Below, one piece after another: positions 2,094-9,045 of a DNA stretch of 46,876 bases. Position 1 is the first letter of the stretch. Each line of letters opens with the position of its first letter. A program made the translations under genes and the position numbers. The stretch is from Bacteroidales bacterium (GTDB lineage Bacteria > Bacteroidota > Bacteroidia > Bacteroidales > Marinilabiliaceae): NCBI GenBank assembly GCA_024401355.1, contig JAKSLF010000023.1, forward strand, positions 1 through 46,876, in the 5' to 3' direction. A model generated the notes under the pieces. It was not told the origin of the DNA. It worked only from the letters and a program-made list of their open reading frames with translations, and searched no databases.

Positions 2094-2660
2094 TTATTCA
2101 AAGCAAAGGCATTCCTTATTCTGAATTAGATATGCCTGAACAAATGGTGAAGTCGCTTTATCTATACATTCGTCATATTTCGCCAGCATTTTCTTTTTGG
2201 CTTCTTCTTTCGAATCGCCTGAAAGAAGGCTTTTCAAACCTGACATAGCGCATTCACGAAACGAATCATCAAATTCTACAATTGTTAATACATCATTATA
2301 TCCTACAAATATACCAAGTCCAATGCGCTTCAATTCCTGTTTCAGGTTCACACCGCATGAACAAGACACCGCATAGAATACCTTGTCAGCTAAGTCATAA
2401 TTCGCTGTATGAACAGTAATGACATCTTCATCATTGTTGTTATAAACACCATTGGCATCTCCATGTGCAGCAATGAAACAGACGCAATGATTGTTCATAT
2501 TTCCAACTACATTCTGCTCAGTAAGTTCAGGTGGACAAATATTGGTATACTGATGCCCATTGTCAACACAATACTGTTTTACTTCATCAGCGCATGATTC
2601 AAAGAACGAATGTAAACTTGTTTGACTATCGTTATCGTATGCTATCAATACATTCCCCAT
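2094..2660 (-). CDS. Clan CD (caspase-like) cysteine protease candidate
   Basis: A 188-residue protein. The sequence shows a hydrophobic strand ending in a His-Gly pair (CFIAAHGDANG, His66) and about 34 residues later a strand ending in Cys (VFYAVSCSCG, Cys100, with Cys102 close by). This His-Gly then Cys layout is the hallmark of clan CD peptidases (caspases, CHAT, gingipain-like). The rest of the fold cannot be judged by eye, and no signal peptide is present, so it should be cytosolic. The gene begins 1 bp after the receiver gene ends, so it is tightly coupled to the two-component genes. I infer that it is the effector of the cassette, released or activated by the receiver. It could instead be a non-catalytic member of the fold. 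The link to mcrB downstream is looser, with a methyltransferase relic in between. Confidence 0.6.
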   Translation of the reverse strand: MGNVLIAYDNDSQTSLHSFFESCADEVKQYCVDNGHQYTNICPPELTEQNVVGNMNNHCVCFIAAHGDANGVYNNNDEDVITVHTANYDLADKVFYAVSCSCGVNLKQELKRIGLGIFVGYNDVLTIVEFDDSFRECAMSGLKSLLSGDSKEEAKKKMLAKYDECIDKATSPFVQAYLIQNKECLCFE

Positions 2661-2661
2661 A

Positions 2662-3267
2662 TCATTTATTGTCTTTGAAGAAATTATATAAATAGTGTTG
2701 GTTCACCATTCGCTCAATTTCTTTCCCTATTTCAGTTTGCTGTCGTAGTTCTGACAATATGTCCTTCCACGTATAAGTACGACCTCCCGCTACGGAATAC
2801 GCCACTTTATTAGAATCTTCAGGATGTCTTACGAGCCACGCTTCAAGGACACAGTCAAAACGAGATTTCCATAAAGAACGAATTCTTTCCACTTTCTCAT
2901 GGGCAGCATCCTCATCATTGTTTTTTATAAAAAAGATATTTTCGGTATTTATTAACGCCGTCAAGTCGTTTGCTGTCAGTTGGTCTGCTGGATTAGCCGA
3001 CATCATTATAACATATATCAGTGCTGTCTTCTTTCTCAGCTTAAGAACTGCATCAATGCCTTGCCATACCGAACCAAATTTGCAATCCATAAACACTATC
3101 ATTCTTTCAGACATGTGCTCGTCAATGAATTTCATAGCGGGATCAACCTGCTCAAAATATACGACATTGGCAATGCCAGAATAATCCAACCTAAGATTGA
3201 CAACAAATGGATCCTTCTCCCCCATTGTATCATCAACAACTATTATATGAAACTTGTTATCTGTCAT
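2662..3267 (-). CDS. Response-regulator receiver protein
   Basis: A 201-residue protein with a receiver (REC) domain over residues ~5-125. The conserved residues are present: acidic pair Asp12-Asp13 (IVVDD), phospho-acceptor Asp61 (VFMDCK), Ser90 (MMSA) and Lys115 (FFIK). The remaining ~75 residues have no recognisable DNA-binding domain, so output is probably through protein contact and not transcription. The gene starts 2 bp after the GHKL kinase gene and ends 1 bp before the caspase-like gene, an arrangement that suggests balanced translation. The likely phosphodonor is the C-terminal kinase module of the upstream protein and the likely target is the protease candidate; both are inference from gene order. 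Confidence 0.82.
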   Translation of the reverse strand: MTDNKFHIIVVDDTMGEKDPFVVNLRLDYSGIANVVYFEQVDPAMKFIDEHMSERMIVFMDCKFGSVWQGIDAVLKLRKKTALIYVIMMSANPADQLTANDLTALINTENIFFIKNNDEDAAHEKVERIRSLWKSRFDCVLEAWLVRHPEDSNKVAYSVAGGRTYTWKDILSELRQQTEIGKEIERMVNQHYLYNFFKDNK

Positions 3268-3269
3268 AT

Positions 3270-5375
3270 CTATTTCTTGAAGGGTAATTCTATATGTATT
3301 GTTGCTCCTAACGGCGCAAATTCACTATCTTGTACTTTAACCATTCCATTGAGTGCTTTCACTCTCATACGCACTGCATAGAGACCAATTCCACCACCTC
3401 CATGTTCTGCAGTAGTGGTGTTGTAAATTCCAAATACCCACTCTCGCTTTTCAACAGGTATTCCACATCCTGTATCAGAAAAATCCATTACTAATTTATC
3501 GTCGTGTGCACTCACCGTACAACGATAAATTTTCGTTTCTGAATCTTTCATCGCTTTAATGGCATTGTTCGTCAAATTCTGAACAATATCATAGAAGAAC
3601 ATTTCATTACAATTAAGAATCAGATTATCTGCTATATTCATTTCTAACGTTATTCCCTCATTCTCAAATTGTTCAGAAAAAGAGAGCAGAAGATATTCCA
3701 CAAGCTGTTTGATATCAACATCAGTAAATGGTATATTCGTTTTAGAGTAATCAAATATTTCATTTGTAGCTCTATCCAAATTTTTCATTTCGTTGAATAT
3801 CTGCTTTGCATAAAATTGAAAATACTCATTCAAAGATTCATTTGGGAAACGGTTGTTAAAAAAATTAGCTTGCCGTTCTATTTTATGCATAGAAGTCTTT
3901 ACTGCATGAGTAACATTTATTGCATCCTCATGCCTACTCATTATCCGAAGATACATATTTTCGTGTCGGGCATTTTCTTCTTCTGCATCTTGCTGCTCTT
4001 TAACTGCAGTTTCAATACCCTTACCTGCTTGTAGCGCTATTGATTTCAGCTTGCTAAGCTGTTCTGCAAGTTCAGGGTTCGTCTTTATCAGTTCCTCTGT
4101 TTGTTGAACTATCTCAGCAACTTCTGATCCAATTTTCTGTATTTTCTTTGTCTGTTCAGAGCCTTGATGATTCCTTTGATACACTTTCTTCTGATCGAAA
4201 GCTTCAATTTGGTGAAGAATGAATTCTTTAAGTGCAGTATATTCTGGTGTAGCTGTAAAATCTTGTCGATTGGTTGCATCAATAATCTCTGGATTACCAT
4301 CTTTTGTTATATCAACAATACCAATGAGTTCACGTGTACTGACTTTGTCAAATAAATTTTTCCACATTCTTTTGTCTATTCCAAGAATGTCTCTCTTCTT
4401 ATCCGAATCTTCTTCCTGTTCTGCAAATGGAGTTGTTATAATGCCATCTCTATATATTTTAACTCCATCAATGGTTGCTTCTGGATATCTTTTTCTGAAA
4501 GAATTACGAGCATTGCCATTGAAATAGTACAATTGCATTGAAACTTCACCAAATATTTGCAAATCAGTCAATTTAACATCTATTTCTCCTGTAGCTTCAT
4601 TAAACAACAAACACTCCTGTTTTCCATCCCTTGCGGTTATTGTTGCAGACACCGTTGCCAAGTCCCTACCGTCTACTTTATACTCATCAGACCATGAATC
4701 AAGACTATATTCTGGAGAAAGCACATGTATATTAAAAGGATACTGTGTTTTTTCAAATGGTGACACAATACGAGAAGATTCACGAAGGAGTCGTATGATA
4801 TCCTTCTTCTCCCAAACATCTCTAACTCCTACTATCGTTAATATAGTACCATGATCATTTTCACTCTTTGCAGATATATAATCATAAGTATTTTCCACGT
4901 CGGTAAATAAACGGATCTTTTCCGATGGACCATAAGATTGGTTGAAATACTTTTTCCAATCTATATCTACACTGAGCCATGCCTTTGACAAGGTTTGCTT
5001 AGTACATATATTCAAATGGTCGCCAAGTTTATCTACAGCAAAACGACCTATGCCTTTTTCTCCTACACATCTACGTCTATAAGGATCTGGCGACAATGGA
5101 TTTCTGCGTTTATTTGAAGTTCCTATGACCATCCACTTATCACGAATATCTTCAAATGACATTCCTATACCATTATCCTTGATTGTAATTACGGAAGAAT
5201 CACTGTTTACTCCAACATTCTCAAATGTCACTGTCACTTCTGTTGCATTTGCATCATAGCAATTCTTAATTAGCTCAAACAAAGCAGTAACACGATCTGT
5301 AATCAAATCGCGTCCAATCAGACGAAATGTACTAACATCAAAACGCCATCTAAGTATGTTTGACTCATTACCCAT
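3270..5375 (-). CDS. Double-GHKL protein: MORC/Hsp90-type ATPase fused to histidine-kinase-type module
   Basis: A 701-residue protein with the start placed at the ATG giving MGNESNILRW. An upstream in-frame ATG at 5444 would add 23 residues inside the methylase gene and looks unlikely. The N-terminal GHKL ATPase has ELIKNCYDAN (Asn ~38), DNGIG (~67-71) and a GEKGIG lid (~105-110), as in Hsp90, MutL and MORC proteins. A long middle region with DUF-like strands and a probable coiled coil (~410-500) follows. The C-terminus has a possible H-box helix near 'RHEDAINVTHAVK', then a second GHKL module: QNLTNNAIKAM, SDTGCGIP and GGGGIGLYAV. It has no membrane segment. I infer an ATP-driven clamp/sensor that passes a phosphoryl signal to the receiver gene 2 bp downstream. 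Prokaryotic MORC relatives are known in restriction-modification neighbourhoods, which fits the methylase 7 bp upstream. Confidence 0.85.
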   Translation of the reverse strand: MGNESNILRWRFDVSTFRLIGRDLITDRVTALFELIKNCYDANATEVTVTFENVGVNSDSSVITIKDNGIGMSFEDIRDKWMVIGTSNKRRNPLSPDPYRRRCVGEKGIGRFAVDKLGDHLNICTKQTLSKAWLSVDIDWKKYFNQSYGPSEKIRLFTDVENTYDYISAKSENDHGTILTIVGVRDVWEKKDIIRLLRESSRIVSPFEKTQYPFNIHVLSPEYSLDSWSDEYKVDGRDLATVSATITARDGKQECLLFNEATGEIDVKLTDLQIFGEVSMQLYYFNGNARNSFRKRYPEATIDGVKIYRDGIITTPFAEQEEDSDKKRDILGIDKRMWKNLFDKVSTRELIGIVDITKDGNPEIIDATNRQDFTATPEYTALKEFILHQIEAFDQKKVYQRNHQGSEQTKKIQKIGSEVAEIVQQTEELIKTNPELAEQLSKLKSIALQAGKGIETAVKEQQDAEEENARHENMYLRIMSRHEDAINVTHAVKTSMHKIERQANFFNNRFPNESLNEYFQFYAKQIFNEMKNLDRATNEIFDYSKTNIPFTDVDIKQLVEYLLLSFSEQFENEGITLEMNIADNLILNCNEMFFYDIVQNLTNNAIKAMKDSETKIYRCTVSAHDDKLVMDFSDTGCGIPVEKREWVFGIYNTTTAEHGGGGIGLYAVRMRVKALNGMVKVQDSEFAPLGATIHIELPFKK

Positions 5376-5382
5376 TAGGATA

Positions 5383-6450
5383 TTATTTAATATGTTGTAT
5401 AATGCTTTCAGCAATAATCTCTCCCAATCTTGGAGGTACTGCATTCCCTATATAACGAGATGCTTTCGTTAACGACACCTCTTTTTCATTAGGGAAAAAT
5501 TTATATGTCTTTGGAAATGTCTGAAACAAAGCAGCTTCTCTAGCAGAAATAGCTCTATCCTGAACAGGATGGCCAAAACGACCATTACCATATCCAGTAC
5601 ATTGGGTCGTCATAGTTGGAGATGGCTTTTCCCACACCATTCGCCCATAAACACTACCAAAACTTTTTCCACCCTCCTTTTTGTGACAAGCCAACTTTAG
5701 TTCATCTGGCCAATCCTTCCACCCACCACCATATGGAGTTGCCTTAATTCTTTGCATATTTAGTGGTGTCAATGCTATGGCACGATGTAGAGGATCGTAT
5801 GCACAACTTTCTCCAGCTTTTAACGGAGGCAACTCCTTTATAGTATCTCCTACTGTTACATATTGTTCTGGAGTATGTGTAGGTGGTATCAATGATATTT
5901 CGCCATACTTGGAAGCCAAAAGAACTAATCTTTTTCTATTTTGTGGAATGCCATAGTCTGGACAATATACCTTGTTAACAGAAACTTGGTATCCCTCACT
6001 TTTAAGCAAGTCTACAAAATCTTGTAGTACAGGTTTCAATTTAAAGTTTAGTATTTGAGCAACATTCTCCATTGTTACAATGTCAGGATGAACCTCTTTT
6101 ACTAATCGACCAAATTCATAAAGCAAATCGTATTTGTTTGGGTCTTTCTCCTTTTTTGTATGAGAATATGACGAAAACGGTTGACAAGGTGCACAACCAG
6201 CAAGAACTTTTATTGCATTGGGAGAATACAAAGTATTTATTTCTTTTTTTGTTACCTTACGGATATCAGTGTCAAAAAACAAGGCATTGTTATTGTGTTC
6301 ATATGCAAATTTACATGTGGAATCAATATCAAATCCTGCTTTAATATTAAAACCTGCTGTTTTTAATCCATAACTAAGACCTCCTATGCCACAAAACAAA
6401 TCAACAACATCGACTATTTGTGATTGACGAGAATGCTTGTTACTTGCCAT
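5383..6450 (-). CDS. DNA (cytosine-5) methyltransferase
   Basis: A 355-residue, apparently complete Dcm/Dnmt-type methylase that transfers a methyl group from S-adenosylmethionine to cytosine C5. Visible motifs: I (VDLFCGIGGLSYG, residues 16-28), IV (GCAPCQPFSSY with nucleophile Cys89), VI (MENV, Glu128), VIII (QNRKRLVLLA), a target-recognition region with TMTTQCTGYGNGR, and IX/X (ISAREAALFQTFP, GNAVPPRLGEII). It heads the operon that continues with the double-GHKL protein. No restriction endonuclease gene is adjacent, so the methylase may mark self DNA for the MORC/kinase/protease genes; that is inference. Expression probably starts at the promoter near 6776-6805, which sits in front of an older methyltransferase relic. 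Confidence 0.95.
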   Translation of the reverse strand: MASNKHSRQSQIVDVVDLFCGIGGLSYGLKTAGFNIKAGFDIDSTCKFAYEHNNNALFFDTDIRKVTKKEINTLYSPNAIKVLAGCAPCQPFSSYSHTKKEKDPNKYDLLYEFGRLVKEVHPDIVTMENVAQILNFKLKPVLQDFVDLLKSEGYQVSVNKVYCPDYGIPQNRKRLVLLASKYGEISLIPPTHTPEQYVTVGDTIKELPPLKAGESCAYDPLHRAIALTPLNMQRIKATPYGGGWKDWPDELKLACHKKEGGKSFGSVYGRMVWEKPSPTMTTQCTGYGNGRFGHPVQDRAISAREAALFQTFPKTYKFFPNEKEVSLTKASRYIGNAVPPRLGEIIAESIIQHIK

Positions 6451-6805: not shown

Positions 6806-7175
6806 TGTTTTTTTTGATTTATTTTGAAGTGTATGTGGGTTGTTCGTGTCCGTCGATGCAAATTAAATGCTTTCATCGTCAGTTGTTGTGGTTGTTTTCG
6901 TCTGACTGATTCTGCAGCAATGTCATGGAATTTGTACATGACTATATTGGCCGTATGTTAAAATCTTATCCCAATGGCAGAAAAAAAAGAAAATGAGATA
7001 ATTTTGTGAAAAGCAAAACCAATGTTGGTTACATAGCTTGTGATGCAGTGAACTTATAATGTGCTTATCTGTCCGTTATATGATAATATTGTATAGCCTA
7101 GGTTAGGTAATGCTTTGTTAATCAGATACGTGACTGAATGTGGATGAATATAGGAACAGTAGTAATTTATATTGT

Positions 7176-8201
7176 ATGATAGACAGAACAGAATTTGAGA
7201 AAATAATAGATGGCTTAAAATTGCCAGAGACATATAGCAGTGAAGAATTGGCAGAGAAGTGCCAACCTTTATATCAAGTGATTCATAAGATTCTGCCAGA
7301 AAAACTGTTCCGTTATCGGATGTGTTCATTGAGGAATGTTGAAGCGTTCAATTGCGATGATGTGTATGCAGTGACGACTGATATGTTCAACGACCCATAT
7401 GATGGTTTGGTGAAATACAATACAGACGGACTAAAACAGTTCTTTGCTATGATGACAAATCCAGAAAACTTTGCTGCGTACCAAAATATGGTAAAGTCAG
7501 GATCCATAGTTCCAGACAATATAAAACCATATCTAAAATATTTACCACAATCTTTTGTCGAGGATGTCATTACTAATGTTTTGTCTGTAAAACAAGGTGA
7601 ACAATTAGATGAGAAGTTAAGGTCGCTTTATAAATCATTTGAGACGTTCATAGAAACTCAATTGCCTTTTTATGCGACATTGAGCAAGCAATGTTCAACT
7701 GTTGCTTGCTTCTCAGAAACTATTTGTTCCGTTACGATGTGGAGCCATTATGCGGACTATCATAAAGGTTTCGCTTTGGAATATGATGTAAGAGAATGTC
7801 TGGGTAAGCCAGGAAACTCAACGATATTTTTACCTGTAATATACGATGACAAACGTATTGACGCTACAGACTTTTTGTTGTGGCAATGTATAAAATCTAT
7901 GAATATAAACATTCCCAATCCCGATATGCTTTCTCACATAAGATGTTTAATACATAAATCAAGGCAATGGGAATACGAACAGGAGTGGCGTATGATTGAT
8001 ACTGCAAAGGGTATTTCCGATAGCGGTTCTCGAATAACCAAAGTGACACTAAAACCTAATGCGATCTATTACGGCAACTCTATATCTCTAAATGACAAAT
8101 CTTTCCTCCATGATATCGCAGTAAAAAAAGGCATTGCTGAATACGAAATGTATATGGACTTCACATCAGATATATATGAGATGAAATATAAAAAGATTTA
8201 A
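7176..8201 (+). CDS. DUF2971 family protein
   Basis: A protein of 341 residues from the ATG at 7176; a GTG at 7140 would add 12 residues. DUF2971 hallmarks are present: LFRYRMCSLRN followed by TDMFNDPYDGL near the N-terminus, MWSHYADYHKGFALEYD in the middle and an EQEWRMI motif towards the C-terminus. The biochemical role of this family is not established; its members are frequent in defence and mobile islands. Here it faces away from the methylase operon, about 430 bp from the methyltransferase relic. There is no signal peptide, so it should be cytosolic. The AT-rich composition matches the rest of the island. Whether it belongs to the same system as the divergent operon cannot be told from the sequence. 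Confidence 0.88.
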   Translation: MIDRTEFEKIIDGLKLPETYSSEELAEKCQPLYQVIHKILPEKLFRYRMCSLRNVEAFNCDDVYAVTTDMFNDPYDGLVKYNTDGLKQFFAMMTNPENFAAYQNMVKSGSIVPDNIKPYLKYLPQSFVEDVITNVLSVKQGEQLDEKLRSLYKSFETFIETQLPFYATLSKQCSTVACFSETICSVTMWSHYADYHKGFALEYDVRECLGKPGNSTIFLPVIYDDKRIDATDFLLWQCIKSMNINIPNPDMLSHIRCLIHKSRQWEYEQEWRMIDTAKGISDSGSRITKVTLKPNAIYYGNSISLNDKSFLHDIAVKKGIAEYEMYMDFTSDIYEMKYKKI

Positions 8202-8541: not shown

Positions 8542-9045
8542 CTAGCAAGCCTGCTTTTTGCCAATACACTCCATGACGTTATGGTCACGGTGCCTTCCTA
8601 TCCCTTGATAATATCCCTTTTTTTCAACTCCAACTCCTCTCGCCACTGCCAATTGTCGACTCGCTGCGTCAACTTTTTCAAAAAGTGGACTCACTGCGTC
8701 CACTTTCCCCGATTGTCGACTCACTGCGTCGACAATCTGAGGAAACAATTGGTAAAACTTGATGTAAGTGTATAAATCTCGTCTATCAAACCCCTTGCCA
8801 TATTTTTTTGTCAACGCGGCTGCAAGTTGCTCAATAACGTGTTTCCCATATTCAGCTCGGCCATCATCGTCAAGATGCTCACGAGTGATACGCTCTCCAA
8901 GTTTCCAGTTACGCAAAGTGAGAGCTACATTTACAGCACGATAAGCAAACTGACGCGCCTCGTCAATAATGACGCACGCATCTTTGTATAGCTCACCATC
9001 GAGCACATCACTTTCTCTATATGTCTGAATAACTTTATCTTCCAT
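8542..9045 (-). CDS. YhcG/DUF1016 N-terminal domain protein, truncated
   Basis: The first ~110 residues match the DUF1016 (YhcG-type) N-terminal domain: YKDACVIIDEARQFAYRAVN, LRNWKLGERI, YGKHVIEQLAAALTKKYGKGFDRRDLYTYIKFYQLFP. Full-length members are about 350 residues with a PD-(D/E)xK nuclease domain, which is absent here. After a repetitive VDAVSRQ/VDAASRQ stretch the frame ends in an unrelated basic tail. The neighbouring frame at the same place reads WREELELKKRDIIKG then stop, which resembles a YhcG C-terminus. I therefore read this as an internal deletion with a frameshift. It ends 6 bp from the convergent pseudogene. Confidence 0.7.
   Translation of the reverse strand: MEDKVIQTYRESDVLDGELYKDACVIIDEARQFAYRAVNVALTLRNWKLGERITREHLDDDGRAEYGKHVIEQLAAALTKKYGKGFDRRDLYTYIKFYQLFPQIVDAVSRQSGKVDAVSPLFEKVDAASRQLAVARGVGVEKKGYYQGIGRHRDHNVMECIGKKQAC

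Follow-up and report, generated by a model that had tools for sequence, protein, structure and literature searches.

A conserved, mobile gene cassette combines a DNA cytosine methylase and a MORC-type histidine kinase with a receiver and a predicted caspase-like protease

We analyzed a stretch of 46,876 nucleotides from a Bacteroidales bacterium (contig JAKSLF010000023.1; hereafter the window) and found that four of its minus-strand genes, encoding a DNA methylase, a MORC-type sensor histidine kinase, a receiver and a small caspase-like protein, belong to a cassette that is rare and moves as a unit. On balance, we favor the view that the cassette is a self-contained, mobile immune circuit that distinguishes self from non-self in the manner of restriction-modification, with proteolysis instead of DNA cleavage as its output. 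The four genes are as follows.

5383..6450, minus strand: C5-cytosine DNA methyltransferase, 355 residues, first gene of the cassette (PF00145, E 6e-63)
3270..5375, minus strand: paraMORC-type sensor histidine kinase, 701 residues, ATG at 5375
2662..3267, minus strand: receiver protein, 201 residues, with a CheY-like domain (5-137) and a C-terminal extension (138-201)
2094..2660, minus strand: caspase-like (clan CD) protein, 188 residues, predicted dyad H66/C100

A sequence-only reading of the window had described these as minus-strand genes separated by 7, 2, and 1 bp (methylase to kinase, kinase to receiver, and receiver to small protein), and all four open reading frames (ORFs) were found in that place, on that strand and with those gaps. 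The longest ORF of the kinase gene begins at 5444, within the methylase gene; the ATG at 5375 yields the 701-residue protein.

When 393 genomes of the order were scanned with the N-terminal half of the kinase as the query (E 1e-10), 46 genomes matched, the window's own included, and in the four closest others (G407, G386, G173, and G403; 40-51% identity across the full-length kinase) a methylase, a kinase, a receiver, and a relative of the small protein followed in the same order. A scan of a species-genome collection with the kinase alignment gave 164 relatives, and the best 80 of these together with the window and G403 made up a set of 82 loci, of which 81 are distinct; three others were left out as duplicates of members of the 80. 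In all 82, the kinase, receiver, and caspase-like genes were adjacent, on one strand and in the same order with no ORF between them, at kinase identities to the window of 35-66% and across four phyla (by record title, 74 Bacteroidota, 3 Spirochaetota, 1 Campylobacterota, and 1 Pseudomonadota, with 3 ungrouped). The closest relative of the window is L068, with 66% kinase identity, and close to contig ends the caspase-like genes of L078 and L110 are truncated. The worry attached to the sequence-only reading, that homologs of these genes might never be neighbors elsewhere, was thus not borne out, and a conserved four-gene unit is supported.

The small protein had been credited with the His-Gly/Cys pattern of clan CD proteases, and a structure prediction of another fold would have overturned that assignment; the prediction made with the family alignment was a caspase fold (pLDDT 97), and the His-Gly/Cys pair proved invariant. 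The only fixed residues throughout the family are this His-Gly, the Cys, and one Gly. A His after strand 3 and a Cys after strand 4 of the caspase fold are the hallmark of clan CD, and the modeled protein has both. Its best matches among solved structures include gingipain, SAVED-CHAT, separase, legumain, and caspases, SAVED-CHAT being the first Foldseek match to the predicted model and the second by Z. Foldseek also returned flavodoxin-like WrbA chains and ranked two of these higher than the first caspase, which we take to reflect the shared doubly wound core; no WrbA occurs among the 50 matches listed by a second structure aligner, which are clan CD proteases along with DdvA, an anti-sigma factor. 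The CRISPR-linked caspase-like proteases SAVED-CHAT and Craspase TPR-CHAT, which have the fold predicted here, are switched on by cyclic oligoadenylate or target RNA, unlike the cassette, whose linked input is a kinase and a receiver.

Sequence searches were less informative for this protein. No match above the curated cut-off was obtained in Pfam and none in NCBIfam, and two candidates, Csn2 (a weak PADLOC match, E 0.002) and a FAD-binding-like Pfam family (E 0.006), were rejected as short chance matches; since Pfam, NCBIfam, and PADLOC gave no convincing family, the identity of the protein rests on structure and conservation. Against PDB sequences, the single protein matched only a histidine-kinase fragment (E 0.6), while an 80-member profile gave lectins (E 0.04), judged to be chance, and ancestral caspase-6 at E 0.6. 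The Pfam family Peptidase_C25 was found in only 3 of 80 family members (best E 6e-4). With the single sequence as query, plasmids yielded nothing at E 1 and viral contigs nothing either, and two further caspase-like queries were likewise negative in plasmids. Judging from the modeled fold, the small protein would be a protease.

The kinase consists of an N-terminal GHKL ATPase module, a central region, a HisKA-like helix with H490, and a C-terminal GHKL kinase domain. The two GHKL modules anticipated from the sequence were recovered as PF13589 (HATPase_c_3; residues 30-147, E 3e-19) and PF02518 (residues 591-700, E 2e-24), and residues 12-196 match NF050001 (BbrUII/HgiDII restriction enzymes; E 2e-19). 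Both HATPase_c_3 and the C-terminal HATPase_c were matched in every one of the 68 kinases scanned out of the 82, and HisKA (PF00512) in 19 of the 68. The ATP-binding residues of the N-terminal module (E34, N38, D67, G69, G71, G105, G108, and G110) are fixed in 82/82 kinases, as expected of a paraMORC ATPase; K335 and H490 are likewise kept in all 82. Separately, a second GHKL protein (624 and 672 residues, respectively) lies beside the cassette in L075 (3040-4914) and L111 (3954-5972).

The receiver matches PF00072 at E 7e-4, under Pfam's cut-off. It had been said to hold all of the phosphorylation residues, and D12, D13, the phospho-acceptor D61, and S90 are indeed present, but the beta-5 lysine is kept loosely (K115 in the window; K or R at the neighboring column in 59/82). 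The C-terminal extension is conserved, and a single-sequence search with the receiver found no match in plasmids. We considered whether in G224 (L194, 375 residues) this extension is fused to a caspase domain, but the match was too weak to retain: a one-sequence search gave a domain E of 0.003, and at E 1 a wide search did not report it. The L194 gene itself (2696-3823, minus strand) encodes this 375-residue caspase-like protein, and the weak resemblance of its N-terminal part to the extension is a lead that possibly hints at a shared adaptor domain. At L184 (4659-6251, minus strand), a 530-residue protein with a receiver-like N-terminus and an apparent OLD/AbiEii-type ATPase stands beside a 308-residue gene and is perhaps another receiver-driven defense effector.

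The match to PF00145 agrees with the Dcm-type methylase proposed for the first gene, and the PCQ, ENV, QxRxR, and GNAV residues, as in type II methylases, are fixed in 78/78 directly adjacent methylases. A methylase is linked in 81 of the 82 loci, directly upstream in 78, one gene upstream in L111, and, in L138 and L144, convergent and adjoining the protease gene; in L087 the contig starts inside the kinase gene and no methylase is visible. The cassette of the window has, on either side, a dead start of a different C5 methylase (MxxxYTFIDLFAG-type), at 6746-6633 and 2077-1964 (both minus strand). In L068, a longer methylase with a start of this type follows the cassette and precedes a McrB-like gene, and for this reason the McrB-like gene of the window (1998-394) has perhaps lost its methylase partner.

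Mobility was seen directly. Hoylesella timonensis (L086) and Parabacteroides goldsteinii (L088), which belong to different families, have 8.6 kb in common at 94.7% DNA identity, within the following element.

L086 1-8716 and L088 4483-13212: transposon-like element of ~8.7 kb with inverted ends of 102 and 97 nt

This element, which makes up the entire contig in L086, contains a 66-residue helix-turn-helix (HTH) gene, the four cassette genes, and three tyrosine-recombinase-like genes (labeled by eye), so the cassette and the small HTH regulator are its entire cargo; no nuclease was recognized in it. Of 78 loci, 17 have a small HTH gene immediately ahead of the methylase, 11 of them recognized by profile and 6 by eye; that HTH profile found none before the methylase of the window.

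The cassette is also rare. Among 71 genomes of the family, the receiver was found only in the window's own. The caspase-like profile matched only the window's own among 395 genomes of the phylum and, at a loose cut-off (E up to 1e-4), 9 of 334 genomes of the order including it, in searches that scored few candidates per genome and can miss distant members. Among these nine, the match in G240 lies within a 760-residue protein, and the gene in G224 has no kinase or receiver beside it. The caspase-like census profile was built over three rounds from its own hits, which makes the scores partly circular but not the gene order.

Relatives of the kinase extend further. They occur in 395 plasmid records, 17 of which cover at least 80% of the kinase, all at <60% identity, and a DNA methylase lies within ~3 genes in five of eight plasmid neighborhoods (L010, L011, L012, L015, and L017, but not L013, L014, or L016). 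Viral contigs gave no match with the kinase alone and three loci (L148-L150) with the kinase alignment; two relatives in phage records cover 95% of the kinase at 24-25% identity. On a Pseudanabaena plasmid (L013 6001-10777), a kinase relative is followed by a hypothetical gene and then by a metallo-beta-lactamase-fold gene apparently split by IS982, possibly an output like that of Canu, a system discussed below.

A search with the receiver alignment added two loci, L182 (G139:C243) and L183 (G139:C325). The kinase of L182 has 1,172 residues, of which only 895-1172 match the family profile (206 bits), whereas sacsin matches 21-132 (E 4e-6); a receiver and a caspase-like gene follow this sacsin-like kinase, and no methylase was present within the 12 kb fetched. 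L183, on a short contig, holds the end of a kinase and a receiver, together with a caspase-like gene that a stop interrupts. Because L182 keeps the kinase domain, the receiver, and the protease without the methylase or the MORC-type sensor, these three make up the core. In four distant loci (L054, L056, L058, and L195), a methylase, a 774-868-residue kinase, a receiver-like protein, and a 230-250-residue His-Gly/Cys protein stand in the same order, the receiver-like protein being assigned by place (profile match weak or none) and the caspase-like protein of L054 by motif recognition only. In L052, L060, L064, and L150, an HNH-like gene follows the receiver-like gene in the place of the caspase-like gene (HNH_2 by profile in L060, by eye in the others), which is why the effectors on the relay seem interchangeable.

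How might such a circuit work? As expected from its family, the methylase would mark the host's own target sites. The N-terminal MORC-type ATPase of the kinase may clamp DNA and report DNA that is unmethylated or otherwise abnormal, and this report would switch on the C-terminal kinase, leading to autophosphorylation on H490. The phosphate could then pass from H490 to D61 of the receiver, both residues being present, and the phosphorylated receiver, probably through its C-terminal extension, would free or assemble the caspase-like protease, which would cleave host or phage proteins so that the infected cell is stopped. A more specific proposal, which we hold tentatively, is a missing-self cell-death circuit in which the MORC ATPase reads the missing methylation mark and activates the caspase by a histidine-aspartate phosphorelay. 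This would be restriction by a death protease, built on one phosphorelay chassis with interchangeable sensors (methylase plus MORC, or sacsin-like without a methylase) and effectors (caspase-like, HNH, and Vsr).

Several points weigh against an immune circuit of this kind. Composition, conservation, predicted fold, mobility, and the sensor swap were observed directly; the defense role, phosphotransfer, proteolysis, and every reaction step are what we infer beyond them, as is methylation as the sensed signal. The relay between kinase and receiver keeps its expected residues invariant, but apart from the loose beta-5 lysine, the residue after H490 is acidic in 0/82 kinases (A 45, I 18, M 13, V 2, G 2, L 1, S 1). 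PMC8011034 describes Glu or Asp after the phospho-histidine in HisKA kinases and in the HEF_HK family, and since no acidic residue follows H490, the kinase chemistry may differ from theirs or be weak. That the methylase accompanies the MORC-type sensor, as seems to be the case, rests on one genome, and no substrate gene is conserved across loci. Many of the 82 loci are metagenome bins, the others isolates.

The expected co-occurrence with defense islands is only mildly positive. Among 140 nearest flank genes, which include near-copies (e.g., one recombinase per copy of the shared element), DNA_methylase was found in 14, against no more than 1 among 120 control genes, AAA_5 (McrB-type) in 6 versus 2, and Phage_integrase in 4 versus at most 1; in contrast, AAA_21 was not enriched (4 versus 4), and by PADLOC the flanks could not be told from the control. 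Two genes of the window match PADLOC candidate-defense families, at 7140-8201 (plus strand; DUF2971, PDC-S31) and at 8542-9045 (minus strand; PDC-S02, DUF1016 N-terminal domain only).

One alternative is that the caspase-like protein unleashes, by cleaving it, a pro-nuclease whose gene lies next door in some loci but elsewhere in the rest. This principle has been demonstrated experimentally in Canu (PMC12799240), which pairs a caspase with a gated metallo-beta-lactamase-type nuclease and, like our candidate, uses a caspase-family protease as the executing protease, there for phage defense. Past the protease, the first gene on the same strand is Vsr-type in 7/82 loci (one a fragment), HNH-like in 4/82 (L071, L073, L108, and L115), and McrB-like in 5/82 (window included), and 16/82 loci, again including the window, have a McrB-like gene at some point in their fetched flanks. 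No cognate endonuclease is a conserved partner in the 82 loci, other nuclease folds not being searched gene by gene, and by a motif test, no HxHxDH gene (metallo-beta-lactamase, Canu-type) of at least 120 residues occurs in their fetched flanks, in contrast to Canu. With no nuclease conserved across the 82 loci or recognized in the ~8.7-kb element, the protease is the only conserved candidate effector, and we consider a nuclease output unlikely.

The cassette could also be a selfish addiction module, in which loss of the methylase would leave host DNA unmethylated, the kinase would fire, and the protease would kill any cell from which the element was lost, phage defense being secondary or absent. 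Its carriage on a transposon-like element, its patchy occurrence within the family, and the HTH controller-like genes of some loci fit such a module, which does not exclude defense. Because L182 has no methylase in the fetched stretch, methylation-based addiction would fail in G139, and we judge this explanation quite improbable.

We give little credence to an ordinary regulatory two-component system that controls an adjacent restriction-modification system, with the protease regulating protein turnover. The 2021 paper on HEF_HK speculates about restriction-modification control (PMC8011034); against this, the receiver has no DNA-binding output domain recognized by Pfam (the extension 138-201 was not searched alone), the flanking genes are not conserved, and the cassette stands alone in its mobile element. 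Finally, the same order in 82 diverged loci with no intervening ORF is not due to chance, and this synteny leaves practically no room for neighbors without joint function.

Among known systems, the cassette stands close to the pair HEF_HK (PF19191)/Response_reg_2 (PF19192), reported beside C5 methylases (644 regions, with 91.6% linkage of the two members; Bellieny-Rabelo et al. 2021, PMC8011034). Like that pair, it has a kinase made of HATPase_c_3, a phospho-histidine helix, and HATPase_c, an adjacent receiver-like gene, C5 methylases and often Vsr nearby; it differs in the residue after the histidine. The kinase and receiver of the window did not match PF19191 or PF19192 at E 1. PF19191 is known to be present in the library; since it falls below the 25 most frequent families in 68 kinases, no more than 2 of these can match it. 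PF19192 never appeared as any match, and because it falls below the 25 most frequent families in 75 receivers, no more than 1 of those can match it. The main text of PMC8011034 makes no mention of a caspase, protease, or peptidase, and the words phage and abortive do not occur in it either.

Detocs, a three-gene family whose best-described member has an ATP-cleaving PNP effector (PMC11249213), resembles the cassette in feeding two-component signaling to a defense effector, here a candidate one; unlike Detocs, none of the four cassette proteins has a PNP domain, the one Detocs effector compared, and the Detocs description there does not include a DNA methylase. As with the MORC/paraMORC restriction-modification operons and the BbrUII/HgiDII enzymes, an N-terminal GHKL module lies beside C5 methylases, but those operons use endonucleases and helicases (PMC2292703), where the cassette has a kinase domain, a receiver, and a protease. 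The sequence-only reading knew of no described system with this set. We found no open-access paper that adds a protease to the methylase/MORC-kinase/receiver set, most subscription papers lying outside this coverage; because the association of methylase, MORC-type kinase, and receiver, in a sister family, was in print in 2021 (PMC8011034), the novelty of the whole set is not fully supported. Thus, the chassis is already in print, and the effector and its wiring appear to be new.

If the immune-circuit interpretation is correct, the cassette would join DNA-methylation self-marking, two-component phosphorelays, and caspase-type proteases, hitherto separate subjects, and would explain the role of MORC-like histidine kinases that neighbor methylases where there is no nuclease. 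Some methylases now assigned by annotation to restriction-modification systems would then belong to protease-based systems, and the cassette would offer a genetically simple, mobile model for the reading of methylation by an immune sensor and the switching of a caspase by phosphate.
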